Positions 7,650-62,898 of a stretch of 64,000 bases of DNA are shown piece after piece. The translations under genes and the position numbers were made by a program. The DNA is taken from assembly GCF_045679555.1 (NCBI RefSeq), contig NC_092096.1:22165211-22229210 (forward strand), in the 5' to 3' direction. The notes under the pieces were generated by a model. It searched no databases. It was not told the DNA's origin and saw only the letters and a program-made list of their open reading frames with translations. The stretch comes from Salvelinus alpinus. Lineage: Eukaryota > Chordata > Actinopteri > Salmoniformes > Salmonidae. Position 1 is the first letter of the stretch; each line of letters begins with the position of its first letter.

Positions 7650-7659
7650 GTCTACTTAC

Positions 7660-17259: not shown

Positions 17260-17320
17260 TACATATAGACATATTAAACATCTGACTTATTATTTACATT
17301 GTGTTCCTCATGTCACTTTT

Positions 17321-18007: not shown

Positions 18008-18066
18008 CTGTATCAGAAAAACCTTTCAGTCCCATTGAATAGATATGTTATATCTAAGCCTCGGTA

Positions 18067-18230: not shown

Positions 18231-18240
18231 GTCTACTTAC

Positions 18241-19460: not shown

Positions 19461-19729
19461 ACACAGGATGGTCACAGTGTCATAAAGTGTATTTTCTACA
19501 AGTTGTTTAAAATATGATAGAGAGAGAGAGAGAAAGAGAGAGAGACCTGAACCTACATTTTAGACAATAGCACAGATTCAAAGAACGAAACATTATACCG
19601 TTATATTTACATGCTCTTGGTTAGTTCAAATGATTAATATCTAAATTCAAACAAATGTCAGTTCCTCATAGAGTACTGTGACACTTTGGGAACTAAATAT
19701 TGCATTGCAATGTATGGAATTATCAGGAG

Positions 19730-20478
19730 CAGACCTGGGTACAAATACATGCGTATTTATATTTTAAATACTTATTTTGTGTGTGAATATGAGTTATGTG
19801 GTCAAAATTTGCTACCTCTTTTAACATTTCCTACAAATAGCCTACTTTAACGGCTGTTGGTGGAAGAAGGAGTGGAACAAAACGCAGCGTAGTAAGTGTC
19901 CATGTTAATATTTATTTTAACTCAGAACACTAAAACAAAATAACAAAATTAGACCAACACGAAACAGTTCTGTCTGGTGCAGACACAGAGACAGAAAACA
20001 ACCCACAAACACAGGTGGGAACAGGCTACCTAAGTATGGTTCTCAATCAGAGACAACGATAGACAGCTGCCTCTGATTGGGAACCATACCAGGCCAAACA
20101 CATAGAAATACAAAAAAATACAAAGAACATAGAACACCAGACATAGAATGCCCACCCAAACTCACGCCCTGACCAACCAAAATAGAGGCATAAAAAGGAT
20201 CTCCAAGGTCAGGGCGTGACACTACTATCTGAAAACAATTTTCAAATCTTGTTTCCAAACACATTCTTCCAAATACCCTAGGAACAAACAGAAAGTGGGT
20301 TCAAATGCGTAGAGTATTTAAATATTTTTATATTTAAATATTTCAAATGCAGAAAAATGCTTTTGAAGTGTATTCCCAAATACATTCCAATATTCAACTA
20401 CTTGTATTTTCAAGTAAATACTTACTTCGAAATGTCTTTGAAAGTTATTGAAATACCCCAAATTTGAACATGGGTCTG
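19730..20478. mobile_element. hAT-like MITE interrupted by a solo LTR (copy 2)
   Basis: Counterpart of 9097-9464 with the same inverted ends and flanking 8-bp duplication. It is split by the LTR at 19847-20221, which is absent from copy 1. Confidence 0.8.
19847..20221 (-). mobile_element. Solo LTR, same family as the 3020-5242 element
   Basis: This 375-bp LTR in minus orientation is flanked by CTACT on both sides (19842-19846 and 20222-20226). Copy 1 has the empty site with one CTACT. It therefore arrived after the duplication, and its internal region was lost by LTR-LTR recombination. It is a fossil without coding capacity. Confidence 0.85.
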
Positions 20479-21028
20479 ATTAGGAGACTATTTTTTGGTT
20501 GTAAGAGCAATCATCCTCAATTCATTGTTTTTTTATTTCAGCTCATATGACTGAAATTCATCCAAAGTTAACTTGTAAACTTGAAATTCAATTAACAGTT
20601 TCACAGAGTTCACAGAGCTTAATTTATGTAAACTACCATGAGCAAAATATATAAATTAGCTAAATGTGTTAATGCTATTAAGTGCTATCCTCTTTGAATA
20701 CAATGTACATCTCGCTGTATATGTTTGTAGCGAAATAAATGAAATTCAATATTATAATGTATTTATCTGTTAAACAACTTTTGCCTGTCACCTTTAAACA
20801 ATGTGCAAATCTTAATAGTCACAACATAGCAAATATTAAGAGAGAAGCATAAATAATAAAGAGCATTACCTTGTTACCTGTTATGTTGACTTGACACTTT
20901 GGAATTTGAAGTTTAGACCCAGATGAGTCTTTCTTTGTGTATTTGCATTGAGCAGTGAACAAATTGTTGGTGCTTAACAAGAAGAAACAAGTGTTTGCCT
21001 CAGGAAATCCACTCGAAAGAAAAGAGGT

Positions 21029-40280: not shown

Positions 40281-40832
40281 ATGGGTAAGTTCGACGACAA
40301 CGAGAGGATAATCCTCAACGTTGGGGGAACCAGGCACGAGACGTACAAGAACACGCTGAGGACACTGCCGGGGACTCGGCTGGCCCTTCTTGCCTCCGAT
40401 TCTGACATCGAGTCCGTTTTGGATCAGCTGCAACAAGTCCCCGGCTTCATAGAGTACAACACGCGGAACAACGAATACTTTTTTGACCGCCACCCAGGGG
40501 TATTCGCTTATGTCCTTAACTACTATCGAACCGGGAAACTCCATTGCCCAGCAGATGTTTGTGGTCCGCTGTTCGAGGAAGAGCTGTCCTTCTGGGGAAT
40601 CGATGAGACGGACGTGGAGCCATGCTGCTGGATGACCTATCGCCAACACAGGGACGCCGAGGAGGCGCTCGACGTGTTCGACATAAACGTTGACAATGGA
40701 GACGACGACGAAGAGACGGGGAAAAGACTCGGAATTGAGGAAGTGGTTGATCCTAATATCAGCCGCTGGAAAAAGTGGCGACCTGTGATTTGGAATCTAT
40801 TTGAGGATCCCTATTCTTCCAGAGCGGCAAGG
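40281..40832 (+). CDS. kcnc2: kcnc2 coding exon 1 (Kv3.2 potassium channel N-terminus)
   Basis: 184 codons run from ATG to an AGG|GTAAGA donor. [20 protein letters not shown] matches Kv3.2 better than Kv3.1 or Kv3.4, as does KRLGIEE near residue 148. The T1/BTB tetramerisation domain spans about residues 8-118 and keeps the zinc motif H-x5-C-x20-CC (H88, C94, C115, C116). The exon ends in [11 protein letters not shown], the usual Kv3 exon 1 border just before S1. The six membrane segments are in later exons outside the window. Kv3.2 gives fast delayed-rectifier currents in fast-firing neurons. The first in-frame ATG was chosen. Confidence 0.92.
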
Positions 40833-42364: not shown

Positions 42365-42490
42365 TTGTCACTCAGAGTAGGAGTGCTGATCTAGGATCAG
42401 ATCCCCACTACCCATGTAATCATTTTCCATTATGATCGAAAAGGCACAACTGATCCTATATCCGTCCTGGGCTAAAGGCTAGCGCTACCG
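42365..42490. mobile_element. MITE fragment with GCTGATCTAGGATCAG end
   Basis: Resembles a common salmonid palindromic repeat. A related fragment lies at 63440-63545. The right arm has decayed. Confidence 0.55.
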
Positions 42491-42991
42491 CTTACAATGA
42501 ACGGGACATGGACATGGACTCATGCAATAAATCCCACTACGACCTCTGACGAGAGACATCAAACATGCAAAATGACAATATAGGAGGAAGGTCGCTTCGA
42601 GGAATATAACATTGTACATTGCGTGAAAGCCCATATGACTGTGTGATCTCGCTTTCCATGGCCGATGTGAGCAAAACGTTAAAACAGGTTAACAATCATA
42701 AGGCCGCCAGGCCAGATGGAATACCAGGGCGTGTTCTCAAAGCACGCGCAGACCAGCTGGCAGGTGTCTTCACAGACATTTTCAATCTCTCCTTGTCCCA
42801 GTCTGTAATCCCAACATCATTTTAATTGACCACCGTTGTCCCTGTTCCCAAGAGCTCCAAGGTAACCTACCTAAATGACAATCGCCCTGTAGCACTCACA
42901 TCTGTAATTATGAAGTGCTTTGAAAGGCTGGTCATGTCACACAACAACACCATGGCCGTGCATGACTCCAACACCATCATCATGAGTCAGC

Positions 42992-44520
42992 CTACAGGGA
43001 GGAGGTCAGAGACTTAGCAGTGTGGTGCCAGGACAACAATCTCTCCCTCAATGTCAGTAAGACCAAGGAGCTGATTGTGGACTACAGGGAGGAGGTCAGA
43101 GACTTAGCAGTGTGGTGCCAGGACAACAATCTCTCCCTCAACGTCAGTAAGACCAAGGAGCTGATTGTGGACTACAGGGAGGAGGTCAGAGATTTAGCAG
43201 TGTGGTGCCAGGACAACAATCTCTCCCTCAACGTCAGTAAGACCAAGGAGCTGATTGTGGACTACAGGGAGGAGGTCAGAGACTTACCAGTGTGGTGCCA
43301 GGACAACAATCTCTCCCTCTATGTCAGTAAGACCAAGGAGCTGATTGTGGACTACAGGGAGGAGGTCAGAGACTTAGCAGTGTGGTGCCAGGACAACAAT
43401 CTCTCCCTCAACGTCAGTAAGACCAAGGAGCTGATTGTGGACTACAGGGAGGAGGTCAGAGACTTAGCAGTGTGGTGCCAGGACAACAATCTCTCCCTCA
43501 ATGTCAGTAAGACCAAGGAGCTGATTGTGGACTACAGGGAGGAGGTCAGAGACTTAGCAGTGTGGTGCTAGGACAACAATCTCTCCCTCTATGTCAGTAA
43601 GACCAAGGAGCTGATTGTGGACTACAGGGAGGAGGTCAGAGACTTAGCAGTGTGGTGCTAGGACAACAATCTCTCCCTCAATGTCAGTAAGACCAAGGAG
43701 CTGATTGTGGACTACAGGGAGGAGGTCAGAGACTTACCAGTGTGGTGCTAGGACAACAATCTCTCCCTCTATGTCAGTAAGACCAAGGAGCTGATTGTGG
43801 ACTACAGGGAGGAGGTCAGAGACTTACCAGTGTGGTGCTAGGACAACAATCTCTCCCTCTATGTCAGTAAGACCAAGGAGCTGATTGTGGACTACAGGGA
43901 GGAGGTCAGAGACTTAGCAGTGTGGTGCCAGGACAACAATCTCTCCCTCTATGTCAGTAAGACCAAGGAGCTGATTGTGGACTACAGGGAGGAGGTCAGA
44001 GACTTACCAGTGTGGTGCCAGGACAACAATCTCTCCCTCTATGTCAGTAAGACCAAGGAGCTGATTGTGGACTACAGGGAGGAGGTCAGAGACTTAGCAG
44101 TGTGGTGCCAGGACAACAATCTCTCCCTCTATGTCAGTAAGACCAAGGAGCTGATTGTGGACTACAGGGAGGAGGTCAGAGACTTAGCAGTGTGGTGCCA
44201 GGACAACAATCTCTCCCTCAATGTCAGTAAGACCAAGGAGCTGATTGTGGACTACAGGGAGGAGGTCAGAGACTTACCAGTGTGGTGCTAGGACAACAAT
44301 CTCTCCCTCAATGTCAGTAAGACCAAGGAGCTGATTGTGGACTACAGGGAGGAGGTCAGAGACTTACCAGTGTGGTGCTAGGACAACAATCTCTCCCTCT
44401 ATGTCAGTAAGACCAAGGAGCTGATTGTGGACTACAGGGAGGAGGTCAGAGACTTAGCAGTGTGGTGCCAGGACAACAATCTCTCCCTCAATGTCAGTAA
44501 GACCAAGGAGCTGATTGTGG
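42992..44520 (+). repeat. 90-bp coding minisatellite in the LINE, 17 units
   Basis: Exactly 17 units of 90 bp each encode a 30-residue segment including VWCQDNNLSLNVSKTKELIV. The unit length keeps the frame. Variant sites mark unit types: CCAGG or CTAGG (the latter makes a TAG stop, in six units), TTAGCAG or TTACCAG, and CTCAATG or CTCTATG. Identical variant combinations recur in blocks, as expected from unequal exchange or slippage. Confidence 0.97.
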
Positions 44521-45342
44521 ACTATAGAAGAAAGAGGGGAGAGCACACTCCCATCCACATCGACAGAGCTTTTGTGGAGCGGGTCGAGAGCTTCAAGTTC
44601 CTTGGTGTCCACATCATTAAGGACTTAAAATGGTCCACACACACCCGCACAGTTATGAAGAGGGCACGACAACACCTCTTTCCCCTCAGGAGGCTGAAAA
44701 GATTTGTCATGGGCCCTCAGATCCTCAAAAAGTTCTACAGCTGCACCATCGAGAGCATCTTGACTGGCTGCATCACCACCTGGTATGGCAATATCACCGC
44801 CCTTGACAGCAAAGCGCTACAAAGGGTGGTGCGGACCGGAAAACGGTATCGAAGCGTTGGCTCTCAGACCAACAAGCTCAGAGACAGCTTCTACCCCAAG
44901 CTATAAGGCTGCTAAATAGCCAGACTGCGAAATAGTCAATTAATGTTACCTGAACTGTCTGCACTGACTCTATCTTGCCCTGACCCTGTGCACATCCACT
45001 TTATATACACACAATATACACACTCACTCACACACACTAAGCTTTTAAACCCTCACATATTCACAAACACTACACACACACACGCATACCGACACAACAC
45101 AAACACACACACACGCATACCGACACAACACAAACACACACACATACATACATACACGCACATTCACACAGACACACTTTTACACTCATTATTTGCTGCT
45201 GCTACTCCGCTCTTTATTTTACCCTTATTATTATCTATCCTGATGCCTAGTCACTTTACACTGCCTTCATGTACATATCTACCTCAAATACCTTATTATT
45301 ATCTATCCTGATGCCTAGTCACTTTTCCTCTGCATTCATGCA

Positions 45343-46947
45343 CAGTGGGGCAAAAAAGTATTTAGTCAGCCACCAATTGTACAAGTTCTCCCACTTAAAA
45401 AGATGAGAGAGGCCTGTAATTTTCATCATAGGTACACTTCAACTATGACAGACAAAATGAGAAAAGAAAATCCAGAAAATCACATTGTAGGATTTTTAAT
45501 GAATTTATTTGCAAATTATGGTGGAAAATAAGTATTTGGTCACCTACAAACAAGCAAGATTTCTGGATCTCACAGACCTGTAACTTCTTCTTTAAGAGGC
45601 TCCTCTGTCCTCCACTCGTTACCTGTATTAATGGCACCTGTTTGAACTTGTTATCAGTATAAAAGACACCTGTCCACAACCTCAAACAGTCACAATCCAA
45701 ACTCCACTATGGCCAAGACCAAAGAGCTGTCAAAGGACACCAGAAACAAAATTGTAGACCTGCACCAGGCTGGGAAGACTGAATCTGCAATAGGTAAGCA
45801 GCTTGGTTTGAAGAAATCAACTGTGGGAGCAATTATTAGGAAATGGAAGACATACAAGACCACTGATAATCTCCCTCGATCTGGGGCTCCACGCAAGATC
45901 TCACCCCGTGGGGTCAAAATGATCACAAGAACGGTGAGAAAAAAATCCCAGAACCACACGGGGGGACCTAGTGAATGACCTGCAGAGAGCTGGGACCAAA
46001 GTAACAAAGCCTACTATCAGTAACACACTACGCCGCCAGGGACTCAAATCCTGCAGTGCCAGACGTGTCCCCCTGCTTAAGCCAGTACATGTCCAGGCCC
46101 GTCTGAAGTTTGCTAGAGAGCATTTGGATGATCCAGAAGAAGATTGGGAGAATGTCATATGGTCAGATGAAACCAAAATATAACTTTTTGGTAAAAACTC
46201 AACTCGTCGTGTTTGGAGGACAAAGAATGCTGAGTTGCATCCAAAGAACACCATACCTACTGTGAAGCATGGGGGTTGGAACATCATGCTTTGGGGCTGT
46301 TTTTCTGCAAAGGGACCAGGACGACTGATCCGTGTAAAGGAAAGAATGAATGGGGCCATGTATCGTGAGATTTTGAGTGAAAACCTCCTTCCATCAGCAA
46401 GGGCATTGAAGATGAAACGTGGCTGGGTCTTTCAGCATGACAATGATCCCAAACACACCGCCCGGGCAACGAAGGAGTGGCTTCGAAAGAAGCATTTCAA
46501 GGTCTGGAGTGGCCTAGCCAGTCTCCATATCTCAACCCCATAGAAAATCTTTGGAGGGAGTTGAAAGTGCGTGTTGCCCAGCAACAGCCCCAAAACATCA
46601 CTGCTCTAGAGGAGATCTGCATGGAGGAATGGGCCAAAATACCAGCAACAGTGTGTGAAAACCTTGTGAAGACTTACAGAAAACGTTTGACCTCTGTCAT
46701 TGCCAACAAATGGTATATAACAAAGTATTGAGATAAACTTTTGTTATTGACCAAATACTTATTTTCCACCATAATTTGCAAATAAATTCATAAAAAATCC
46801 TACAATGTGATTTTCTGGATTTTTCTTTCTCATTTTGTCTGTAATAGTTGAAGAGTACCTATGATGAAAATTACAGGCCTCTCTCATCTTTTTAAGTGGG
46901 AGAACTTGCACAATTGGTGGCTGACTAAATACTTTTTTAACCCACTG
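45343..46947 (+). mobile_element. Tc1-like transposon, decayed copy
   Basis: Ends are CAGTGGGGCAAAAAAG and its complement, with TIRs of roughly 200 bp. The right flank is TA (46948-46949); the left flank is CA, a decayed TA judged from the host 68-bp unit (ATGTACATATC). The element is 1605 bp and close in sequence to the one at 49091, but its gene is broken. Confidence 0.93.
45709..46731 (+). pseudogene. Tc1 transposase pseudogene
   Basis: It starts [20 protein letters not shown]. An extra A in the A run near 45942 shifts the frame, a TAA replaces the codon after WSDETKI, and another shift follows KHFKV near 46502. The sister copy at 49457 is open throughout, which makes these changes clear. 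Confidence 0.92.
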
Positions 46948-49090
46948 TACATATCTACCTCAAATACCTTATTATTATCTATCCTGATGTCTAGTCACTT
47001 TACCTTGCCTTCATGTACATATCTACCTCAAATACCTTATTATTATCTATCCTGATGCCTAGTCACTTTACCCTGCCTTCATGTACACATCTACCTCAAA
47101 TACCTTATTATTTTCTATCCTGATGCCTAGTCACTTTACACTGCCTTCATGTACATATCTACCTCAAATACCTTATTATTATCTATCCTGATGCTTAGTC
47201 ACTTTACCCTGCCTTCATGTACACATCTACCTCAAATACCTTATTATTTTCTATCCTGATGCCTAGTCACGTTACCCTGCCTTCATGTACACATCTACCT
47301 CAAATACCTTATTATTATCTATCCTGATGCTTAGTCACTTTATCCTGCCTTCATGTACACATCTACCTCAAATACCTTATTATTATCTATCCTGATGCCT
47401 AGTCACTTTACCCTGCCTTCATGTACATATCTACCTCAAATACCTTATTATTATCTATCCTGATGCTTAGTCACTTTACCCTGCCTTCATGTACACATCT
47501 ACCTCAAATACCTTATTATTATCTATCCTGATGCTTAGTCACTTTACACTGCCTTCATGTACATATCTACCTCAAATACCTTATTATTATCTATCCTGAT
47601 GCTTAGTCACTTTACCCTGCCTTCATGTACACATCTACCTCAAATACCTTATTATTATCTATCCTGATGCCTAGTCACTTTACCATGCCTTCATGTACAT
47701 ATCTACCTCAAATACCTTATTATTATCTATCCTGATGTTTAGTCACTTCACACTGCCTTCATGTACATATCTACCTCAAATACCTTATTATTATCTATCC
47801 TGATGCCTAGTCACTTTACCCTGCCTTCATGTGCACATCTACCTCAAATACCTTATTATTATCTATCCTGATGCTTAGTCACTTTACACTGCCTTCATGT
47901 ACATATCTACCTCAAATACCTTATTATTATCTATCCTGATGCTTAGTCACTTTACCCTGCCTTCATGTACAAATCTACCTCAAATACCTTATTATTATCT
48001 ATCCTGATGCTTAGTCACTTTGCACTGCCTTCATGTACATATCTACCTCAAATACCTTATTATTATCTATCCTGATGCCTAGTCACTTTACCATGCCTTC
48101 ATGTACACATCTACCTCAAATACCTTATTATTATCTATCCTGATGCTTAGTCACTTTACCCTGCCTTCATGTACACATCTACCTCAAATACCTTATTATT
48201 ATCTATCCTGATGCTTAGTCACTTTACCCTGCCTTCATGTACATATCTACCTCAAAAACCTTATTATTATCTATCCTGATGCCTAGTCACTTTACCCTGC
48301 CTTCATGTACATATCTACCTCAAATACCTTATTATCTTCTATCCTGATGCTTAGTCACTTTACCCTGCATTCATGTACATATCTACCTCAAATACCTTAT
48401 TATTATCTATCCTGATGCTTAGTCACTTTACCCTGCCTTCATGTACATATCTACCTCAAATACCTTATTATTATCTATCCTGATGCTTAGTCACTTTACA
48501 CTGCCTTCATGTACACATCTACCTCAAATACCTTATTATTATCTATCCTGATGCCGAGTCACTTTACCCTGCCTTCATGTACACATCTACCTCAAATACC
48601 TTATTATTATCTATCCTGATGTTTAGTCACTTCACACTGCCTTCATGTACATATCTACCTCAAATACCTTATTATTATCTATCCTGATGCCTAGTCACTT
48701 TACCCTGCCTTCATGTACACATCTACCTCAAATACATTGTACCTCTGCACATTGATCTGGTACTGGTACTTCCCGTATATAGCTCCACATTGATCTGGTA
48801 CTGGTACTCCCTGTAAATAGCTATACATTGATTAGGTACTGGTACTCCCTGTATATAGCTATACATTGATTAGGTACTGATACTCCCGGTAAATAGCTCC
48901 ACATCGATCTGGTACTGGTACTCCCTATATATAGCTATATATCGATCTGGTACTGGTACTCCCTGTATATAGCTCCACATTGATCTGGTACTGATACTCC
49001 CTGCATATACTGTAGCTCCACATTGATCTGGTACTGGTACTTCCTGTATATAGCTCCACATTGATCTAGTACTGGTACTCCTTGTATATA

Positions 49091-50656
49091 CAGTGAGGCA
49101 AAAAAGTATTTAGTCAGCCACCAATTGTGCAAGTTCTCCCACTTAAAAAGATGAGAGAGGCCTGTAATTTTCCTCATAGGTACACTTCAACTATGACAGA
49201 CAAAATGAGAAAAAGAATTCCAGAAAATCACATTGTAGGATTTTTAATGAATTTATTTGCAAATTATGGTGGAAAATAAGTATTTGGTCACCTACAAACA
49301 AGCAAGATTTCTGACTCTCACAACCCTGTAACTTCTTCTTTAAGAGGCTCCTCTGTCCTCCACTCGTTACCTGTATTAATGGCACCTGTTTGAACTTGTT
49401 ATCAGTATAAAAGACACCTGTCCACAACCTCAAACAGTCACACTCCAAACTCCACTATGGCCAAGACCAAAGAGCTGTCAAAGGACACCAGAAACAAAAT
49501 TGTAGACCTGCACCAGGCTGGGAAGACTGAATCTGCAATAGGTAAGCAGCTTGGCTTGAAGAAATCAACTGTGGGAGCAATTATTAGGAAATGGAAGACA
49601 TACAAGACCACTGATAATCTCCCTCGATCTGGGGCTCCACGCAAGATCTCACCCCGTGGGGTCAAAATGATCACAAGAACGGTGAGAAAAAATCCCAGAA
49701 CCACACGGGGGGACCTAGTGAATGACCTGCAGAGAGCTGGGACCAAAGTAACAAAGCCTACCATCAGTAACACACTACGCCGCCAGGGACTCAAATCCTG
49801 CAGTGCCAGACGTGTCCCCCTGCTTAAGCCAGTACATGTCCAGGCCCGTCTGAAGTTTGCTAGAGAGCATTTGGATGATCCAGAAGAAGATTGGGAGAAT
49901 GTCATATGGTCAGATGAAACCAAAATAGAACTTTTTGGTAAAAACTCAACTCGTCGTGTTTGGAGGACAAAGAATGCTGAGTTGCATCCAAAGAACACCA
50001 TACCTACTGTGAAGCATGGGGGTGGAAACATCATGCTTTGGGGCTGTTTTTCTGCAAAGGGACCAGGACGACTGATCCGTGTAAAGGAAAGAATGTATGG
50101 GGCCATGTATTGTGAGATTTTGAGTGAAAACCTCCTTCCATCAGCAAGGGCATTGAAGATGAAACGTGGCTGGGTCTTTCAGCATGACAATGATCCCAAA
50201 CACACCGCCCGGGCAACGAAGGAGTGGCTTCGTAAGAAGCATTTCAAGGTCCTGGAGTGGCCTAGCCAGTCTCCAGATCTCAACCCCATAGAAAATCTTT
50301 GGAGGGAGTTGAAAGTCCGTGTTGCCCAGCAACAGCCCCAAAACATCACTGCTCTAGAGGAGATCTGCATGGAGGAATGGGCCAAAATACCAGCAACAGT
50401 GTGTGAAAACCTTGTGAAGACTTACAGAAAACGTTTGACCTCTGTCATTGCCAACAAAGGGTATATAACAAAGTATTGAGATAAACTTTTGTTATTGACC
50501 AAATACTTATTTTCCATCATAATTTTCAAATAAATTCATTAAAAATCCTACAATGTGATTTTCTGTCATATGAAGAAAATTACAGGCCTCTCTCATCTTT
50601 TTAAGTGGGAGAACTTGCACAATTGGTGGCTGACTAAATACTTTTTTGCCCCACTG
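49091..50656 (+). mobile_element. Tc1-like transposon with intact transposase
   Basis: 1566 bp, flanked by TA on both sides (49089-49090 and 50657-50658), inserted in the 38-bp array. The ends are CAGTGAGGCAAAAAAG and the complement of TTTTTTGCCCCACTG. The right TIR has lost about 45 bp relative to the copy at 45343, which may impair mobility. It carries an uninterrupted gene. Confidence 0.95.
49457..50479 (+). CDS. Tc1-family transposase, full length
   Basis: 340 codons without interruption, the usual family length. Residues 1-110 form the paired-like DNA-binding region with two helix-turn-helix units and an AT-hook-like PRSGAPRK between. Residues 188-204 are the glycine-rich box ([17 protein letters not shown]). 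The DDE triad is D153 ([11 protein letters not shown]), D244 (HDNDPKHTA) and E279 ([11 protein letters not shown]), at the same positions as in Sleeping Beauty. It would cut and reinsert the element at TA sites in the nucleus. Expression is not shown. Confidence 0.95.
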
Positions 50657-52531
50657 TAGCTCCACATTGATCTGGTACTGGTACTCCCTGTGTATAGCTC
50701 CACATTGATCTGGTACTGGTACTCCCTGTATATAGCTCCACATTGATCTGGTACTGGTACTCCCTGTTTATAGCTCCACATTGATCTGGTACTGGTACTC
50801 CCTGTATGTGGCTCCACATTGATCTGGTACTGGTCCTCCCTGTGTATAGCTCCACATTGATCTGGTACTGGTACTCCCTGTATATAGCTCCACATTGATC
50901 TGGTACTGGTACTCCCTGTATATAGCTATACATTGATCTGGTACTGGTACTCCCTGTATGTGGCTCCACATTGATCTGGTACTGGTCCTCCCTGTGTATA
51001 GCTCCACATTGATCTGGTACTGGTACTCCCTGTTTATAGCTCCACATTGATCTGGTATTGGTACTCCCTGTATGTGGCTCCACATTGATCTGGTACTGGT
51101 CCTCCCTGTGTATAGCTCCACATTGATCTGGTACTGGTACTCCCTGTATATAGCTCCACATTGATCTGGTACTGATACTCCCTGTGTATAGCTCCGCATT
51201 GATCTGGTACTGGTACTCCCTGTATATAGCCCCACATTGATCTGGTACTGGTACTCCCTGTATATAGCTCCACATTGATCTGGTACTGGTACTCCCTATA
51301 TATAGCTCCACATTGATCTGGTACTGGTACTCCCTGTATATAGCCCCACATTGATCTGGTACTCCCTGTATATAGCCCCACATTGATCTGGTACTGGTAC
51401 TCCCTGTGTATAGCTCCACATTGATCTGGTACTGGTACTCCCTGTATATAGCCCCACATTGATCTGGTACTCCCTGTATATAGCCCCACATTGATCTGGT
51501 ACTGGTACTCCCTGTGTATAGCTCCACATTGATCTGGTACTGGTACTCCCTGTATATAGCTTCACATTGATCTGGTACTGGTACTCCCTATATATAGCTC
51601 CACATTGATCTGGTACTGGTACTCCCTGTATATAGCTCCACATTGATCTGGTACTGGTACTCCCTATATATAGCTCTACATTGATCTGGTACTGGTACTC
51701 CCTGTATATAGCTCCACATTGATCTGGTACTGGTACTCCCTGTATATAGCTCTACATTGATCTGGTACTGGTACTCCCTGTATATAGCCCCACATTGATC
51801 TGGTACTGGTACTCCCTGTATATAGCTCCACATTGATCTGGTACTGGTCTCCCTGTATATAGCCCCACATTGATCTGGTACTGGTCTCCCTGTATATAGC
51901 CCCACATTGATCTGGTACTGGTACTCCCTGTATATAGCTCCACATTGATCTGGTACTGGTCTCCCTGTATATAGCCCCACATTGATCTGGTACTGGAACT
52001 CCCTGTATATAGCTCCACATTGATCTGGTACTGGTACTCCCTGTATATAGCTCCACATTGATCTGGTACTGGTACTCCCTGTATATAGCTCCACATTGAT
52101 CTGGTACTGGTCTCCCTGTATATAGCCCCACATTGATCTGGTACTGGAACTCCCTGTATATAGCTCCACATTGATCTGGTACTGGTACTCCCTGTATATA
52201 GCTCCACATTGATCTGGTACTGGTACTCCCTGTATGTAGCTCCACATTGATCTGGTACTGGTACTACCTGTATATAGCTCCGCATTGATCTGGTACTGGT
52301 ACTCCCTGTATATAGCTCCATTCTTGTGTATTTTATCATATTCCTCTTGTGTTAGTTACTATTTTATTTTGTATTATTATTTTTAAACTCTGCATCGTTG
52401 TGAAAGGTTCGTAAGCAAGCATTTCACTGTACAGTCTACACCAGGTGTATTCAGGGCATGTGATAAATACAATTTGATTTGATCAGCATGCCTTCTCTGA
52501 GACTCTTTATGAATAAAGGACCTGGCCACTC

Positions 52532-53325
52532 TCCCTTTTGCTATTGATACATAGCTACACTGGCCACTCTCCCTTTTGATACATAGCTACACTGGCCACT
52601 CTCCCTTTTGATACATAGCTACACTGGCCACTCTCCCTTTTGATACATAGCTACACTGGCCACTCTCCCTTTTGATACATAGCTACACTGGCCACTCTCC
52701 CTTTTGATACATAGCTACACTGGCCACTCTCCCTTTTGCTATTGATACATAGATACACTGGCCACTCTCCCTTTTGATACATAGCTACACTGGCCACTCT
52801 CCCTTTTGCTATTGATACATAGCTACACTGGCCACTCTCCCTTTTGATACATAGCTACACTGGCCACTCTCCCTTTTGATACATAGCTACACTGGCCACT
52901 CTCCCTTTTGCTATTGATACATAGCTACACTGGCCACTCTCCCTTTTGATACATAGCTACACTGGCCACTCTCCCTTTTGCTATTGATACATAGCTACAC
53001 TGGCCACTCTCCCTTTTGATACATAGCTACACTGGCCACTCTCCCTTTTGATACATAGCTACACTGGCCACTCTCCCTTTTGATACAAAGCTACACTGGC
53101 CACTCTCCCTTTTGCTATTGATACATAGATACACTGGCCACTCCCCTTTTGATACATAGCTACACTGGCCACTCTCCCTTTTGCTATTGATACATAGATA
53201 CACTGGCCACTCCCCTTTTGATACATAGCTACACTGGCCACTCCCATTTTGATACATAGCTAGCTGGCCACTCCCTTTTGATACGAAGCTACATTGGCCA
53301 CTCCCCTTTTGATACATAGATACAG
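52532..53325. repeat. 32-bp minisatellite
   Basis: About 24 units of TGGCCACTCTCCCTTTTGAT plus ACATAGCTACAC. Some units carry a 6-bp insertion (CTATTG before ATACAT). It lies just after the LINE tail and shares no obvious source with it. Confidence 0.95.
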
Positions 53326-53423
53326 TCAGTAACAAAGTTATTTATTTATTTGATCCCTCTTTTTCTCCTGCATCTTGACATAACTTGTCAATCAAAGTCT
53401 CCATTAGATAACTGTCTTTGACC

Positions 53424-56400
53424 CCACACCAGAAGTATAGAGAGCACCAGACCAGGAGGATAGAGAGCACCACACCAGGAGTATAGAGAGCACCACACCA
53501 GGAGGATAGAGAGCACCAGACCAGGAGGATAGAGAGCACCACACCAGGAGTATAGAGAGCACCACACCAGGAGGATAGAGAGCACCACACCAGGAGTATA
53601 GAGAGCACCGCACCAGGAGGATAGAGAGCACCACACCAGGAGGATAGAGAGCACCACACCAGGAGTATAGAGAGCACCACACCAGGAGTATAGAGAGCAC
53701 CACACCAGGAGTATAGAGAGCACCACACCAGGAGTATAGAGAGCACCGCACCAGGAGTATAGAGAGCACCACACCAGGAGTATAGAGAGCACCGCACCAG
53801 GAGTATAGAGAGCACCACACCGGGAGGATAGAGAGCACCACACCAGGAGTATAGAGAGCACCACACCAGGAGGATAGAGAGCACCACACCAGGAGTATAG
53901 AGAGCACCACACCAGGAGTATAGAGAGCACCACACCAGGAGTATAGAGAGCACCACACAAGGAGGATAGAGAGCACCACACCAGGAGGATAGAGAGCACC
54001 ACACCAGGAGTATAGAGAGCACCACACCAGGAGTATAGAGAGCACCACACCAGGAGGATAGAGAGCACCACACCAGGAGGATAGAGAGCACCACACCAGG
54101 AGTATAGAGAGCACCACACCAGGAGGATAGAGAGCACCACACCAGGAGTATAGAGAGCACCACACCAGGAGGATAGAGAGCACCACACCAGGAGTATAGA
54201 GAGTATAGAGAGCACCACACCAGGAGTATAGAGAGCACCACACCAGGAGGATAGAGAGCACCACACCAGGAGTATAGAGAGTATAGAGAGCACCACACCA
54301 GGAGTATAGAGAGCACCACACCAGGAGGATAGAGAGCACCACACCAGGAGGATAGAGAGCACCACACCAGGAGGATAGAAAGCACCACACCAGGATTATA
54401 GAGAGCACCACACCAGGAGGATAGAGAGCACCACACCAGGAGTATAGAGAGCACCACACCAGGAGGATAGAGAGCACCACACCAGGAGTATAGAGAGCAC
54501 CACACCAGGAGGATAGAGAGCACCACACAGGGAGTATAGAGAGCACCACACCAGGAGGATAGAGAGCACGACACCAGGAGGATAGAGCGCACCACACCAG
54601 GAGGATAGAGAGCACCACACCAGGAGTATAGAGAGCACCACACCAGGAGGATAGAGCGCCCCACACCAGGAGTATAGAGAGCACCACACCAGGAGGATAG
54701 AGAGCACCACACCAGGAGGATAGAGAGCACCACACCAGGAGTATAGAGAGCACCACACCAGGAGGATAGAGCGCATCACACCAGGAGTATAGAGAGCACC
54801 ACACCAGGAGGATAGAGAGCACCACACCAGGAGTATAGAGAGCACCACACCAGGAGGATAGAGAGCACCACACCAGGAGGATAGAGAGCACCACACCAGG
54901 AGGATAGAGAGCAATACACCAGGAGTATAGAGAGCACCACACCGGGAGGATAGAGAGCACCACACCGGGAGTATAGAGAGCACCACACCGGGAGGATAAA
55001 GAGCACCACACCAGGAGGATAGAGAGCACCACACCAGGAGGATAGAGAGCACCACACCAGGAGGATAGAGAGCACCACACCAGGAGTATAGAGAGCACCA
55101 CACCAGGAGGATAGAGCGCATCACACCAGGAGTATAGAGAGCACCACACCGGGAGGATAGAGAGCACCACACCGGGAGTATAGAGAGCACCACACCGGGA
55201 GGATAAAGAGCACCACACCAGGAGGATAGAGAGCACCACACCAGGAGGATAGAGAGCACCACACCAGGAGGATAGAGAGCAACACACCAGGAGTATAGAG
55301 AGCACCACACCGGGAGGATAGAGAGCACCACACCGGGAGTATAGAGAGCACCACACCGGGAGGATAAAGAGCACCACACCAGGAGGATAGAGAGCACCAC
55401 ACCAGGAGGATAGAGAGCACCACACCAGGAGGATAGAGAGCAACACACCAGGAGGATAGAGCGCACCACACTAGGAGTATAGAGAGCACCACACCAGGAG
55501 TATAGAGAGCACCACACCAGGAGTATAGAGAGCACCACACCAGGAGTATAGAGAGCACCACACCGGGAGTATAGAGAGCACCACACCGGGAGGATAGAGA
55601 GCACCACACCGGGAGTATAGAGAGCACCACACCAGGAGGATAGAGAGCACCACACCAGGAGTATAGAGAGCACCACACCAGGAGTATAGAGAGCACCACA
55701 CCAGGAGTATAGAGAGCACCACACCAGGAGTATAGAGAGCACCACACCAGGAGTATAGAGAGCACCACACCAGGAGTATAGAGAGCACCACACCAGGAGT
55801 TTAGAGAGCACCACACCAGGAGTTTAGAGAGCACCACACAGGGAGGATAGAGAGCACCACACCAGGAGTATAGAGAGCACCACACCAGGAGTATAGAGAG
55901 CACCACACCAGGAGTATAGAGAGCACCACACCAGGAGTATAGAGAGCACCACACCAGGAGTATAGAGAGCACCACACCAGGAGTTTAGAGAGCACCACAC
56001 AGGGAGGATAGAGAGCACCACACCAGGAGTATAGAGAGCACCACACCAGGAGTATAGAGAGCACCACACCAGGAGGATAAAGAGCACCACACCAGGAGGA
56101 TAGAGAGCACCACACAGGGAGGATAGAGAGCACCACACCAGGAGTATAGAGAGCACCACACCAGGAGTATAGAGAGCACCACACCGGGAGGATAAAGAGC
56201 ACCACACCAGGAGGATAGAGAGCACCACACCAGGAGGATAAAGAGCACCACACCAGGAGGATAGAGAGCACCACACCAGGAGTATAGAGAGCACCACACA
56301 GGGAGGATAGAGAGCACCACACCAGGAGTATAGAGAGCACCACACCAGGAGTATAGAGAGCACCACACCGGGAGGATAAAGAGCACCACACCAGGAGGAT

Positions 56401-56668
56401 AGAGAGCACCACACCAGGAGGATAAAGAGCACCACACCAGGAGGATAGAGAGCACCACACCAGGAGGATAGAGAGCACCACACCGGGAGGATAAAGAGCA
56501 CCACACCAGGAGGATAGAGAGCACCACACCAGGAGTATAGAGAGCACCACACCAGGACGATAGAGAGCACCACACCAGGAGTATAGAGAGCACCACACCA
56601 GGAGGATAGAGAGCACCACACCAGGAGGATAGAGAGCAACACACCAGGAGGATAGAGAGCACCACACA
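53424..56668. repeat. 23-bp minisatellite, about 140 units
   Basis: 3.2 kb of the unit GAGAGCACCACACCAGGAGTATA or its GGAGGATA variant. Other variants (CGGG, TAAAG, GCGC, TTTA) cluster in blocks repeated at higher order. No stop occurs in any minus frame of the unit, which produces false open frames up to 680 codons rich in LSILLVWCSLYSWCGALY. Confidence 0.97.
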
Positions 56669-57431
56669 AGGCCATAAAACGTCTGGACCATTGATCCAGT
56701 CAATAATTAAATAATTAAAGCTCTGTCTGCCAGCCTTCAACTACAGTATTGCTGTAATTGCGTTCATAGAGGTCGCTCCCCCATGCTCCTCTGATGATGC
56801 TCATGGTAATCTCATGTCTCAGTGTGGTGGAGGAGGCTGCCTGACTGCTTCACTTTGATGCCTAAGCCCCTCTGTCATGTTATTCCTGTGCTCCTGGGCT
56901 TTACTTCTCCCCTGAGTGCTGCGAGCCTGAGATCTCTCACCTCCCCAGACTGTGTGTGCTAGAGAACCCACAGGCTCCTAATCCTCCCTTGACAGGGTGT
57001 TAAAGTAGAATAATGGGGACTTATTCCCATGGAAATTAGATGGCTGGTTGGCGTTGCTGCAACTCCAGCCACCACCGCCGTCCCCTCAGACACTGTTATA
57101 CCAGGGAACGACTGATGCCAGTGGGCATTATCTTAAATTAGTTCCACGGATCAGACAGTGAAAAATGCACTTGGCTTATTCTACTAGCACTGACTATCAC
57201 CAAGACAAGAGAGCATGTCTATAGCAAACACTTAGCGGAGGGACCAAATCCCCACATCTCACATGCCTTTCAGCAATGACGGATGAAAGCGAGGACAGGT
57301 CCCAGAACACAGGCCCTGTCCCCTATCCTGGCTTTGTTTTCTGTCACATATAAATGCTAAAGCTTGAGAAGTTATCTCCAGTTTGAGGTAGTCATATTAT
57401 GAGTTCTCTCAACGCCATCTAGAGTCTTCCG
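56669..57431. other. kcnc2 intron 1, non-repetitive stretch
   Basis: No repeat or gene is recognised. It is one of the few array-free parts of this intron. Confidence 0.5.
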
Positions 57432-57555
57432 TGCTCCTCAACTTTGGCCTCTTCCTTGCCTCTCAACTTTGACCTCCTCCGTGCTCCTCAACTTTGACCT
57501 CTTCCGTGCCCCTAAACTTTGACCTCCTCCTTGCCCCTCAACTTGGACCTCTGCT
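57432..57555. repeat. 25-bp minisatellite, five units
   Basis: Five imperfect units of GCTCCTCAACTTTGACCTCT plus TCCGT-type endings. Confidence 0.8.
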
Positions 57556-57805
57556 AAACCAGACAGGAAGACCACAACACCACAGTCAGGAGCTCAGTCT
57601 GGGATTTGCTGTAGGGAGGATAATGTGTTCTGAACAGTGCTGCTTCTGTTTACAAGGCAGTGTGGTGCATGGTTATGATGGTGATGGTGACAATGACAAC
57701 AGTAGTTGGGGTGGTGATTATGATGATGATACGTATATATGGATACTACAAGCATTTCGTTACACCAACAATAACATCTGTATCTGACCAATAAAATTAG
57801 ATTTT

Positions 57806-57947
57806 ATATGGTTGCGTCCCAAATAGCAGCCTATTTCCTGGCAGCCTATTTCCTGGCAGCCTATTCCCTGGCACCCTATTCCCTGGCACCCTATTCCCTG
57901 GCACCCTATTCCCACAGCATGTAGAGAATCTGGTGCCATTTGAGATG
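57806..57947. mobile_element. Palindromic repeat fragment with 15-bp array
   Basis: GTTGCGTCCCAAATAGCAGC at the left and TGGTGCCATTTGAGATGCAC at the right are the inverted ends of an abundant salmonid element. Between them GGCAGCCTATTTCCT/GGCACCCTATTCCCT is repeated about five times. Confidence 0.65.
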
Positions 57948-58581
57948 CACACCATGAGTTTGTACAGTCTGTGAAGGTGCAAGAGCTACAGCTCCATATG
58001 ACTTCTCCTTTTCTGACATCATTCTACACACCATGAGTTTGTACAGTCTGTGAAGGTGCAAGAGCTACAGCTCCATATGACTTCTCCTTTTCTGACATCA
58101 TTCTACACACCATGAGTTTGTACAGTCTGTGAAGGTGCAAGAGCTACAGCTCCATATGACTTCTCCTTTTCTGACATCATTCTACACACCATGAGTTTGT
58201 ACAGTATGTGAAGGTGCAAGAGCTACAGCTCCATATGACTTCTCCTTTTCTGACATCATTCTACACACCATGAGTTTGTACAGTCTGTGAAGGTGCAAGA
58301 GCTACAGCTCCATATGACTTCTCCTTTTCTGACATCATTCTACACACCATGAGTTTGTACAGTCTGTGAAGGTGCAAGAGCTACAGCTCCATATGACTTC
58401 TCCTTTTCTGACATCATTCTACACACCATGAGTTTGTACAGTATGTGAAGGTGCAAGAGCTACAGCTCCATATGACTTCTCCTTTTCTGACATCATTCTA
58501 CACACCATGAGTTTGTACAGTATGTGAAGGTGCAAGAGCTACAGCTCCATATGACTTCTCCTTTTCTGACATCATTCTACA
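57948..58581. repeat. 79-bp minisatellite, eight units
   Basis: Eight near-identical 79-bp units begin CACACCATGAGTTTGTACAG. Only one site (GTCTG or GTATG) varies obviously, so the array is recent. It begins at the right edge of the palindromic fragment before it. Confidence 0.95.
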
Positions 58582-59502
58582 GATGTGTTCTAGTGTCTAT
58601 TTGCTCAGTGTTCATTGAAACTCTCTCTTGGAATAGGAGCTAGAACTGGCCTTAGAATGCACAGAGAATTCTGGTAGTGCTGGGAACCGATTACTGATTG
58701 GAGGAAAACCCTTAGAATTAGCTCCTTCAAATTCCCCCTGCTGACGTCACATAGCAGGCTTCCGAATGTCAATGTGCTCCTCCATCTGGGAATGCTTATG
58801 CTAGCTGATAACAACAGCAGTTGTGTGTGTGTGTGTGTGTGGCTATGTCCTACAGATTGATGAATCCATACTGTTCTCCCCATGCTGAGCAGCCTCTCCC
58901 CTTAAGCTATGCTCAGTGTGTGTGTGTGTGTGTGTGTGTTTGTGTGTTCTCCTGTGTTGCTATTCAGTTTGTTTGTCTATTCTTGTATCTCTGTAGTTGG
59001 CCGTGGCAGGATTGGGGTGGTGAAACAACTCATTACCATTATCATGTTGTTTGTGCCTGTATACAGTAACTCGAGGATGAGGTCCCCCTTCCGACGCCCA
59101 GATTCTGACCCTTTCCTACGCTTTCTTTCATTTCCCATGATCCCATCAGAGACTGACGCTTTGCTTCCCGCCACTTAAGAGGTTAAACCCACACCGTCTG
59201 GGTTGCCGCTACCGCCCGCCCGCCGCACGCCTGGAGATGCTTCCGACCCCGGCACAGGCTTGCGCTCGCTCAGCCTGTTGTCATGGCAACATGCTCGCTC
59301 TCTTCCTGTTTTCATTCAGAGCTGCCTGCTCCATGAAACCGTTTGATTTCAGGAATTCGCTCAAATATGACCCCCCCCCCCCACCACCACCACCACCACC
59401 ACTCCATAACTGTTTATGTACTTGCATATTGGATGCAAAAAGGTATTAAATGTTTTTGAGTGCCAATAGGGCCGTCGTCTTTATGCATGCGTTTTTAATC
59501 AT
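58582..59502. other. kcnc2 intron 1 with simple repeats
   Basis: TG runs at about 58821-58841 and 58915-58945, and a C run followed by ACC triplets at 59371-59402. No gene is recognised. Confidence 0.6.
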
Positions 59503-59692
59503 GTCTCCTATAGTCTGAGCAGCTCGGTGGATGAAGGAGGTTTTTAATAATGTCTCCTATAGTCTGAGCAGCTAGGTGGATGAAGGAGGTTTTCAATAAT
59601 GTCTCCTATAGTCTGAGCAGCTAGGTGGATGAAGGAAGTTTTTAATAATGTCTCCTATAGTCTGAGCAGCTCGGTGGATGAAGGAGGTTTTG
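59503..59692. repeat. 49-bp minisatellite, four units
   Basis: Units start GTCTCCTATAGTCTGAGCAG at 59503, 59552, 59601 and 59650, with minor changes. Confidence 0.93.
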
Positions 59693-60204
59693 TTTGTCTG
59701 CTTGTTTCTGTGGTGAATCGTCACAGCTACAGGTCTGTGAGAGAGAGCCTGCCTGTGTCAATGCTGGCACATAATATGCCTGTTCTGCCTTTCTATAGGC
59801 CTGTTCTGCCATTACAAGCACCTATAGGCTTATTCTGTCTAAGTTTATGAGTGCAAGGTAACCCGGTGATGTGGTAACAACTGACTGCTGTGCCTTTTGA
59901 GGGAATTCAACCTGACGTGTAAACAGCAATAGACCTGACGCTGGAAGAGGAGGAAGGGCAAATGCCTGCCTGTGCGTGGGTGGCGTCGGCACGCCGCTGG
60001 GTATGTTTGTAGCCACTGCCAGTCACGTTAATCTCTCCCGTCAATCATCCCACACTCCTCTCCTTTGGAGTGTAATAACTCACAGTATTAGAGAGAGTGG
60101 AGAGCCACGTCGTTAAGGAGCTATTATTTTGGCCTCGTCATCATCAAGTGCTCACAAGTGGACTTATTTTCCTACTGTTGCTGATGGTAGTCAACCACAT
60201 TATG

Positions 60205-60690
60205 GCAGGTGACTGATCCATGACGGGTGACTGATCCATGGTCTAGGACTGATCCATGACGGGTGACTGATCCGTGATGGTAGTCAACCACATTATGACA
60301 GGTGACTGATCCATGATGTAGGACGGATCCATGACAGGTGACTGATCCATGACGTAGGACTGATCCATGACAGGTGACTGATCCATGATGTAGGACTGAT
60401 CCATGATGTAGGACTGATCCATGACGTAGGACTGATCCATGACGTAGGACTGATCCATGACGTAGGACTGATCCATGATGTAGGACTGATCCATGATGTA
60501 GGACTGATCCATGACGTAGGACTGATCCATGACGTAGGACTGATCCATGATGTAGGACTGATCCATGATGTAGGACTGATCCATGATGTAGGACTGATCC
60601 ATGACGTAGGACTGATCCATGATGTAGGACTGATCCATGATGTAGGACTGATCCATGACAGGTGACTGATCCATGACAGGTGACTGATCC
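60205..60690. repeat. 18-bp minisatellite, about 26 units
   Basis: The unit is GACTGATCCATGAYGTAG, with GACAGGT or GACGGGT variants at both ends. Seven units read TGACGTAG, a CREB-type half-site; the others read TGATGTAG. Since 18 is a multiple of three, long minus frames (MDQSYIMDQSY-type) are artefacts. Confidence 0.95.
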
Positions 60691-60709
60691 ACGCCTGTAC
60701 CCCACGCCT

Positions 60710-62451
60710 CAGAGAGTAGAGGGCGTCTTCTCTGTACAGAGCTTCACAAGGCTGCATCCATTTCTCTCTTTATCCCTCCTTTCCTGCATGCGGCATCAAC
60801 TCATGCCTTGGCCAAAAGCCATAAAGAAATATCACTACACTTACCAGTTAAAACAAAACACACTGTCTAAAGGAGCACGTGTGAAGGAGAGGCTGTGGCG
60901 TGGAGGTGCCAGGATGGAATAATGACCTCCATCATCGCTCAGGAAGGACAGGAGCCTGATGGATTGTGGGAAGTCATTCATTGCCACACAGTCTTCCCCT
61001 TGTCCTTGAGAGATTCTGACCTGTTAAAGCAAATTCCCACATAGTGTTAATGTTCAGGGGAGTGGGGGGGTTGATGCTGCACGCCCTCTGAATGAAATGC
61101 ATTTGAAATATGTATGAATGGGGCATCTCATGCATGTTATCGAAAACACATGTGTTCTAGAAATAGAAACCTTGATCTTGGAATGGAACATGTTCAGCTG
61201 TTGCGCTGAGACTCAGTGATATAACCTGAGAATAAACGGTGGCACAAACAAAGACTCTATTGAGAGGTCGTAAGGCAAGAGGCTGCCCTTGTTAGCATCA
61301 CCCACATAGGTACCTTTACGTACACTATATCTGCCCATGTGCGCAAGAGAGTGCCTCCTGCTTCATACTTGCTTTATTTGTGTCTGAAGCCGGTCATTTG
61401 TGGTAATGTCACATTGATGAATTGAGGCCGTTTCAGCTTTGGTAAGATCTTTGGTCAGAGGGGACTAGTATGGACAGAGGTTTTAATAGGAGACGTTTTG
61501 AGGTGCTGGAACCTGAAAGCTACCAAGTGGTTCTTCACATTCATATATTCTGGAATAAGCACCTGTGACCAACCGAGAGTCTCTTGTTCACCAAAGGGCT
61601 GTTTTAGCCCACCGAGCTCAAGCCTAAATATCGTCTCAGGGAGCTAACGCTAGTCTTCAGGTCTCAGGCAGTTTCTGAACCACCTCTCTTACACCAACCC
61701 ACATGTTACAGCGGAAACTGCTCTTCAGAATTGGTTAGGATAAGAGAGATACAGTATATTGCCTGTTTCATGCATTTATGGATGTGATGGTGATGGCATG
61801 CATGAGAAAGGTGTGTGTGCTCTCAGAAAGCGCTCCTTCCTCCAACGTAATGCTCCTAGAGTGCCAAGCGGGGCCCGATATGCACAGGGCCACATTAGTT
61901 TTAACAGAAATGCCATTTGTCTGGGGGTTCTGCTACATTATTGATGTTCCTACTATTCACCAAGATCGAGTGCCTCCTAAGGACAATGGGCATATTAAGC
62001 ATGACATTTTCCAGCGCCATCCCTCAACTCTTACGCTCACACATTAAAAACGTGATTAATAAAACTGATAGATTTTTTTTCTCCAAATCAAACCCCCAAT
62101 TGGCCGTCAGTGAATAATAAAACTGTGGGAAAGTTGGAGTGTTTGAGCTCTGGTAATACTAATTGTGTCTCGCATGACAGTATGTCATACTTAAGGTTAG
62201 CTTTTGTCTGTAAGGATTTAAAGGCCTTCTGGAGGTCTTTAGTCAATTGTCACACTTTTCACAGGGGCATCCATGTTGTTTAGAACTCAGACTAATGAAT
62301 CAGTGAAGTTGTCATATTTAGAGCAAGGGATATTCTGGGGACTGACTCCCCTCTCCTCCCTTCATGGCAGAAGGCCATCTTAGCAGGTCTGTGATTTGCA
62401 TATCCAATCGTTCATTTAACACTTGAAGGAGAGAGAATTTATTTCCAGAAG
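60710..62451. other. kcnc2 intron 1, nothing recognised
   Basis: No repeat array, transposon boundary or coding exon could be supported in this 1.7 kb. Confidence 0.5.
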
Positions 62452-62898
62452 CGCCTCGCCGTCAGATTCCTCGTGACCAGGGGTGGACCGTCCGCCTCGC
62501 CGTCAGATTGCTCGTGACCAGGGGTGTCCGCCTCGCCGTCAGATTCCTCGTGGCCAGGGGTGGGCCGTCCGCCTCGCCGTCAGATTCCTCGTGGCCAGGG
62601 GTGGGCCGTCCGCCTCGCCGTCAGATTCCTCGTGGCCAGGGGTGTCCGCCTCGCTGTCAGATTCCTCGTGGCCAGGGGTGGGCCGTCCGCCTCGCCGTCA
62701 GATTCCTCGTGACCAGGGGTGGGCCGTCCGCCTCGCCGTCAGATTCCTCGTGGCCAGGGGTGGGCCGTCCGCCTCGCCGTCAGATTGCTCGTGACCAGGG
62801 GTGTCCGCCTCGCCGTCAGATTCCTCGTGGCCAGGGGTGGGCCGTCCGCATCGCCGTCAGATTGCTCGTGACCAGGGGTGTCCGCCTCGCCGTCAGAT
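62452..62898. repeat. 41-bp CpG-rich minisatellite, about 11 units
   Basis: The unit GTCAGATTCCTCGTGGCCAG plus GGGTGGGCCGTCCGCCTCGCC alternates with 36-bp forms lacking part of GGGCCG. It is strongly CpG-rich compared with the AT-rich surroundings. Open plus frames of up to 130 codons come from the repeats. Confidence 0.95.

Follow-up and report, generated by a model that had tools for sequence, protein, structure and literature searches.

Minisatellite arrays in a LINE copy of Salvelinus alpinus: two shared with other copies of the family and one private to a minisatellite-rich region

Three tandem arrays in one LINE copy

A stretch of 64,000 nucleotides of Salvelinus alpinus (contig NC_092096.1, positions 22,165,211 to 22,229,210 of the forward strand; here called the window) contains a long interspersed nuclear element (LINE) copy in which three segments are tandemly repeated, with units of 90, 68, and 38 bp. 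This copy is probably a dead, 5′-truncated, and internally deleted element that bears two minisatellites of its family in the 3′ untranslated region (UTR) and a third, private minisatellite of 90 bp. The 68- and 38-bp arrays recur in further LINE copies spread over many contigs, the unit junction being the same in most of them, and the original prediction of three independent expansions within one insertion therefore fails for these two.

The arrays were located with Tandem Repeats Finder (TRF), and their scores are far above chance. TRF and the comparison of LINE copies confirm the earlier observation that the 90-, 68-, and 38-bp units are LINE sequence, on the + strand and in LINE order; each unit is found once, in the same order, in other LINE copies, which identifies it as a piece of a transposable element. 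The 90-bp array (42992 to 44524) has 17.0 copies (match, 98%; TRF score, 2898), with only 5 variable sites, in shuffled combinations, over the 17 units. The 68-bp array, of ~28 units, is cut by a transposon into a left part of ~1.8 units (45225 to 45345) and a right part of 26.3 units with a two-unit periodicity (46946 to 48735 by TRF and 48735 back to 46948 by the transposon border; match, 95%; TRF score, 3230). The 38-bp array, of ~53 units, begins at ~48740 and is also split, into 8.9 copies at 48748 to 49090 (TRF score, 473), within a left part of ~9 units mapped at 48736 to 49093 that is more divergent on average, and 44.2 copies at 50657 to 52320 (TRF score, 2908), in which multiunit blocks are duplicated. 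All of these parts lie on the + strand, as does the LINE 3′ tail that follows (52321 to 52485), which terminates in TTTGATTTGAT.

The LINE had been placed from 42617, but blastn against nine other copies (L013, L014, L015, L018, L021, L023, L026, L027, and L028) shows homology beginning at ~42453. Relative to those nine copies, the window copy is without pieces at 42592, 42953, and 42982, and both the alignment and the translation mark 42453 to 42991 (+) as the remnant of the reverse transcriptase part of a 5′-truncated element with internal deletions. Between the 90- and 68-bp arrays (44525 to 45224, +) lies the 3′ portion of the reading frame, up to 44906, followed by the CA-rich start of the 3′ UTR, which has a 31-bp repeat of 2.6 copies at 45072 to 45151. 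This CA-rich part is also arrayed, with units of 31 to 35 bp, in two other copies (L030:2017-2204 and L033:105-374, in LINE orientation) and is thus a fourth tandem-prone segment. The LINE had been said to have grown from about 2 kb to nearly 10 kb. The arrays are real and make up 5,457 bp of the 9,869-bp interval, but they are not the whole of the growth, since 3,165 bp belongs to two Tc1-type transposons; by subtraction, the remaining ~1.25 kb is other LINE sequence.

The putative assignment to a LINE, that is, a non-long-terminal-repeat (non-LTR) retrotransposon, is supported by dispersed copies with a common 3′ part, and the element may belong to the L2-type clade. The FADD motif is absent from the translation of the window copy and present in copy L018, whose frame matches RVT_1 with an E value of 2.5e-4 (21.3 bits, under the cutoff of 29.6); the E value for the window copy is 0.02. 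The 90-bp unit corresponds to 30 codons of the LINE reading frame, and 6 of the 17 units have a stop codon. Because it is without FADD and has internal deletions, we regard the window copy as dead.

The 68- and 38-bp arrays are found in other LINE copies

In the host genome, 40 of 2421 candidates were scored for the 90-bp unit, 40 of 63 for the 68-bp unit, and 40 of 80 for the 38-bp dimer, so that all counts below are lower bounds. The samples were picked by similarity to the window, and the only rough array frequency is that from the set chosen by the 90-bp unit; 68-bp matches with <40 and 38-bp matches with <20 aligned bases were dropped from counting. Thirteen other tandem-looking places were fetched for the 68-bp unit, and 12 of them hold from 2 to at least 66 units, with a partial second unit in the 13th (L039); the 38-bp segment is also arrayed in 6 of the 13. 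The 38-bp dimer, counted directly from the matches (at least 59 of 76 bases), occurs in at least 27 distinct places, at least 25 of them besides the window and a near-identical second locus described below. Among the 29 LINE copies chosen by the 90-bp unit, the 68-bp segment could be counted in 12 and is arrayed in 1 (L025, 8 units), and the 38-bp segment could be counted in 15 and is arrayed in 1 (L016, 11 units). The unit number among loci thus ranges from 1 to at least 66 for the 68-bp segment and from 1 to ~53 for the 38-bp segment, and both are multilocus repeats, the former by the 12 of 13 places plus L025 and the latter by the at least 25 places. Two related matches were also seen: two adjoining partial 68-bp matches at C1:91225335, noted from the matches themselves, and, at C8:12027455-12028685, a regular series spaced by 46 bp and mostly 85% matching that is related to the 38-bp unit and apparently reflects another LINE copy with a unit of different length.

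The 90-bp array is different. At least 62 matches to its unit were found, 17 in the window, 7 in the second locus on the same contig, and at least 38 elsewhere; none of the 38 matches listed has a second 90-bp match nearby, and the segment is single in all 29 of the other LINE copies fetched from among them, 12 of which were fetched on the 3′ side only of the unit. One fetched stretch (L020) contains separate LINE copies, each with one 90-bp copy. Save for the near-identical second locus, the 90-bp array is therefore not a multilocus repeat, and the suggested search for other copies with arrays at the same three segments found them for 68 and 38 bp and not for 90 bp. Within the window, the single-copy state had been read at 6732 to 7195 (+). 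This holds for the 3′ UTR, as the fragment has the 68- and 38-bp segments in single copy, but not for the 90-bp segment, as no reverse transcriptase part is present there. The same 3′ UTR fragment recurs at 17289 to 17781 (+), within a duplicated block.

Shared junctions and shared variants

Units of the 68-bp array meet at CAAATACC/TTATTATTATCT in the window, as they do in 11 of the 14 other loci that have a whole or partial second unit (L025 and L029 to L038), with near variants in the remaining three (L039, L040, and L041). For the 38-bp units, the junction reads ATAGCTCC/ACATTGATCT in the window and likewise in 6 of 7 other arrays, with variants in L039. The typical single-copy borders read ...tactc/TTATTATTATC...CTCAAATACC/tcgtacc for the 68-bp segment and cctctgc/ACATTGATCT...ATATAGCTCC/attcttgtg for the 38-bp segment. 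Recurrent independent duplication is disfavored because the same bases would need to be hit every time. In addition, 8 of 13 arrays are polymorphic at site 21 of the 68-bp unit (in L040, the alternative state is A, not T), and this site is C in all 11 readable copies with a single unit (12 examined). With units of <60 bp left out and the second locus excluded, polymorphic sites of the 68-bp unit are common to loci to a degree that none of 5,000 random placements reached. The two arrays also occur together: the 38-bp segment is arrayed in 6 of the 9 loci in which it can be recognized among the 13 chosen by the 68-bp unit versus 1 of 15 chosen by the 90-bp unit (Fisher P = 0.004), in counts entered by hand for two sets chosen differently, with L039 counted and L030 taken on a 15-bp match.

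The alternative is a LINE with an inherent tendency to duplicate at these two 3′ UTR junctions, each insertion then generating arrays of its own. This would fit the private unit variants in the arrays of L016 and L025, the arraying of the CA-rich part in L030 and L033, and the scatter of array-bearing copies over a star-like, poorly resolved tree. The borders, however, share only ~2 to 3 exact bases, as ~6 to 17% of random positions do, which leaves the same base-exact junction unexplained, and the unit polymorphism common to loci and the co-occurrence of both arrays point to common descent; recurrent birth is thus unlikely.

Several results weigh against common descent with later local growth. 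The tree, which needs tail coverage and includes 21 of 43 copies (array loci L032 to L034, L036 to L038, and L040 were dropped), is almost unresolved, with good support for 2 of its 18 inner branches, and copies with a 68-bp array form no clade on it (6 changes; shuffled mean, 6.0), as would also be expected from independent duplication at one hot junction. The shared polymorphism at site 21 is not shown in 5 of 13 arrays (L025, L030, L035, L036, and L037), the arrays of L016 and L025 are built of their own unit variants, and the separation between loci is unclean, with the two closest loci differing by just 0.027 in their 68-bp units. The 38-bp units of the window are nearer to those of L029 and L037 (0.036 and 0.035) than to one another (0.052). 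Finally, non-LINE arrays are not significantly denser in the flanks of array-bearing LINE loci (8 in 42.8 kb) than around LINE loci without 68- or 38-bp arrays (12 in 126.8 kb; P = 0.13), and one of those 8, in L033, has the sequence of the CA-rich LINE 3′ UTR. The unclean separation between loci, in both units, counts against strong homogenization and not against common descent. Homogenization appears to be partial: distances among the 68-bp units of one locus fall under the between-locus mean of 0.068 in 12 of 13 loci, but the 38-bp units of the window are nearer to those of L029 and L037. Common descent of short duplications followed by local growth is the better, although not proven, reading of these sequences: the 68- and 38-bp segments would each have been tandemly duplicated in source elements, and the short duplications would have been carried to new sites by retrotransposition.

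Neither folding nor junction homology accounts for the arrays. As single-stranded DNA, none of the 90-, 68-, and 38-bp units shows better folding than shuffled sequences on either strand (z, 0.74 to 1.75), and secondary structure was rejected as a cause. The exact junction homology is 3 bp for the 90-bp unit, 2 bp for the 38-bp unit, and 0 to 2 bp (by eye) for the 68-bp unit, and random positions show 2 bp in ~17% and 3 bp in ~6% of cases; microhomology of 2 to 3 bp at the present junctions is not significant and was likewise rejected. A 6-bp match for the 38-bp unit was set aside, as it needs the diverged fragment at 6979 as the ancestor and no single copy read has it. The direct repeats of 5 to 10 bp that flank the duplicated segment in the Haber-Louis model were not seen, and an older flanking homology may have decayed. 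Given the short junction homology and folding like that of shuffles, neither result supports an obviously slippage-prone sequence.

A near-identical second locus and growth in place

A second locus, 193 kb downstream on the same contig (C11:22387000-22416999; L011, L009, and L010), matches the window from 27136 into a 23-bp array beyond the LINE, with both transposons included. The single-copy pieces and transposon 1 are 99.2 to 99.9% identical between the two loci, except for one 422-bp piece at 96.7%, and transposon 2 is 98.8% identical with length differences. The arrays differ much more. The 90-bp array has 17 units in the window and 7 in the second locus (only 3 of these 7 align as identical units), the 68-bp array has an extra two-unit block in the second locus, and the 38-bp array there has one unit fewer on each side. 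Among the other arrays, the non-LINE 32-bp array has 23.5 versus 18.5 units, the non-LINE 23-bp array has 140 versus at least 240 (the sequence fetched stops within this array), a 42-bp array has 18.3 versus 17.3, and a 46-bp array is equal. The difference in unit number is thus greatest for the 23- and 90-bp arrays, followed by the 32-bp array and then the 68- and 38-bp arrays. Because the near-identical locus differs at every LINE array, array turnover is recent and local.

The second locus is either a true duplication or a second haplotype (false duplication). Its presence 193 kb away, together with a block repeated at ~98.5% identity elsewhere in the window (1 to 9589 and 10656 to 20603), makes false haplotype duplication possible for the second copies. 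That the arrays themselves are assembly artifacts is extremely improbable, since the units differ and their ordered maps, for 68 and 38 bp, are collinear between two loci that were assembled separately, and since many loci have equivalent arrays.

The units within the arrays show how growth may have proceeded. In the 90-bp array, all four combinations occur at three pairs of sites. Among the 25 units used from the 68-bp array, adjacent units are less alike than shuffled ones and next-but-one units more alike (share of permutations with a distance no greater than that observed, 0.9995 at lag 1 and 0.037 at lag 2), for which reason growth was likely in two-unit steps. The 38-bp array has a repeated block of four units, and block repetition there exceeds the permutation (P = 0.016); repeated multiunit blocks are within the permutation range in the 23-bp array (P = 0.25), and none were seen in the 68- and 90-bp arrays. 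Unequal exchange, conversion, or slippage would leave such patterns. That the left 38-bp block predates the right one (P = 0.002; 7 of ~9 left units used) is a weak claim, because one right 7-unit stretch, in which two 32-bp units scored 7 mismatches each, is nearly as divergent (2.71 versus 3.0).

These observations also bear on whether the duplications arose during reverse transcription, by template slippage or jumping at target-primed insertion, and date from each insertion. Such an origin would put dimers in newly inserted copies, and the passages cited from PMC3389668 suggest that retrotransposition may start repeats of this kind. The near-identical loci differ, however, which indicates later growth in DNA without a new insertion, and we regard this origin as quite unlikely. 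Under common descent with local growth, the arrays would have grown, shrunk, and been partly homogenized locus by locus after insertion, by one to several units at once, presumably through unequal exchange, gene conversion, or slippage.

The 90-bp array and the minisatellite-rich region

Eight arrays with units of 15 to 79 bp follow the LINE at 52544 to 62898. They comprise the 32-bp array (52544 to 53324, +; 23.5 units), the 23-bp array (53424 to 56671, +; 140 units), and six further arrays of 25, 15, 79, 49, 18, and 41 bp (57425 to 62898). A unit sample of each has no other match in the window, and the eight are accordingly classed as non-LINE sequence. When the arrays are collapsed to one unit (16 arrays taken by hand from TRF; period, ≥10; copies, ≥4), the LINE has 2.07 arrays per kilobase, its 3′ flank 1.38, and the upstream part 0.12. 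The LINE and the 3′ flank do not differ (P = 0.47), and each differs from the upstream part (P = 0.002 and 4e-5). With a period of ≥15 and with cluster edges picked after the arrays were seen, the 3′ flank of the window (8 non-LINE arrays in 5.8 kb collapsed) is ~15-fold richer than the flanks of 27 LINE loci without 68- or 38-bp arrays (12 in 126.8 kb; P ≈ 1e-6).

This setting raises the possibility that a purely regional process made all three arrays, with the LINE as a bystander. The eight non-LINE arrays that directly follow and the similar densities in the LINE and its 3′ side would agree with it, but the same 68- and 38-bp arrays in other LINE copies argue against it, and as an account of all three it is very unlikely. 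For the 90-bp array alone, it is the best reading: the array is absent from all 29 of the other copies fetched and lies in an array-dense region, which fits a local process. The original prediction had offered a local repeat-generating process or a slippage-prone LINE. The former suits the 90-bp array, the 68- and 38-bp arrays appear to be a trait of the LINE family, and no obvious slippage-proneness was found. The 90-bp array would thus have arisen only here, in a region with a high rate of minisatellite formation, and would still be turning over quickly.

Two Tc1-type transposons inside the arrays

Transposon 1 (45346 to 46947, +) lies at the TA of a 68-bp unit, of which the left TA is now CA, and transposon 2 (49094 to 50656, +) is flanked by TA within the 38-bp array and has an open transposase frame of 340 amino acids at 49457 to 50479. 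They belong to one family, with 98.2% identity across 1,470 bp at a distance of 3.7 kb, and have terminal inverted repeats of ~200 bp that are shorter at one end of transposon 2. The frame of transposon 1 is broken, and the domain scan was made on transposon 2, with matches to HTH_SB (6.2e-24), HTH_Tnp_Tc3_2 (7.9e-24), and DDE_3 (4.6e-14). HTH and DDE domains, inverted repeats, and the TA target identify both as predicted members of Tc1/mariner. The open frame and the identity between the copies suggest that this family was active fairly recently. The phase of the 68-bp units runs on across transposon 1, which therefore entered an existing array. Since both transposons are present in both loci, they would have landed in the 68- and 38-bp arrays before the two loci separated.

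Other features of the window

Upstream of the LINE, an exon encoding the BTB/T1 domain (BTB_2) of a voltage-gated K+ channel lies at 40281 to 40832 (+) and is followed by GTAAG; we take the channel to be Kv3-like. As the motifs tried gave no second exon in the window, the LINE and the array cluster downstream of this exon are probably in an intron of the channel gene. The block of ~10 kb at 1 to 9589 and 10656 to 20603 is present twice in tandem, with 95.8% identity in its last piece, and includes a 27-bp array of 13.1 and 11.1 units in the two copies. A short, degenerate, interstitial CCCTAA telomere-like repeat is located at 9678 to 9746. No relatives were found in the collections of viral contigs, genome contigs, and phages, and solved structures gave chance-level matches only.

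Known systems and significance

Tandem repeats are born from many transposable elements, LINE frames and 3′ UTRs included, according to the passages cited from PMC9659126 and PMC6947457, and the case described here belongs to this known biology of minisatellites derived from transposable elements. The human multilocus tandem repeats derived from transposable elements (mlTRs; also the LTR12 and L1PA internal repeats), as presented in the cited part of Ahmed and Liang 2012 (PMC3389668), vary in unit number and grow by local duplication; they resemble the present arrays in having units that are pieces of transposable elements, many loci, variable unit numbers, and local growth, whereas here the element is a fish LINE with two 3′ UTR arrays of up to at least 66 units and a private reading-frame array. 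In the excerpts of PMC9659126 used, the chicken HinfI satellite derives from the 3′ UTR and partial ORF2 of CR1, so that there too a LINE supplies tandem units from the reading frame and the 3′ UTR, but the present arrays are short, local minisatellites inside individual dispersed insertions. Ogre elements and PisTR-A, from the same excerpts, likewise have variable tandem repeats in a retrotransposon 3′ UTR, although Ogre is a plant LTR retrotransposon and not a LINE. The model of Haber and Louis 1998, as described in the cited part of PMC6947457, places minisatellite birth between short flanking repeats; the present case is similar in that a short unique segment would first have been duplicated, with slippage, conversion, or unequal exchange acting later, but the junctions here share 2 to 3 bp instead of the 5 to 10 bp of that model. 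Among the titles and abstract beginnings searched, a scope that excludes most subscription papers and preprints, none reports tandem arrays in a salmonid LINE 3′ UTR.

Two probably inherited arrays, a private one, and two transposons nested in the same insertion make a striking structure, yet one that comes from ordinary processes. The case also shows that the presence of an array within a transposon does not prove its origin there. With its single-copy, dimer, and long-array states and its mostly fixed junctions, this one family offers a natural series for the study of minisatellite growth, to which the near-identical pair of loci with their unequal array differences adds. For the host, the 68- and 38-bp arrays represent a dispersed, potentially polymorphic class of repeats, here apparently in a potassium channel intron. 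It is possible, though we put it somewhat short of probable, that minisatellites are dispersed by this salmonid LINE lineage, whose 3′ UTR would bear two ready-made short duplications with fixed junctions. If so, each new insertion would seed two arrays able to grow, and in a minisatellite-prone region even a coding segment of the LINE would join in.

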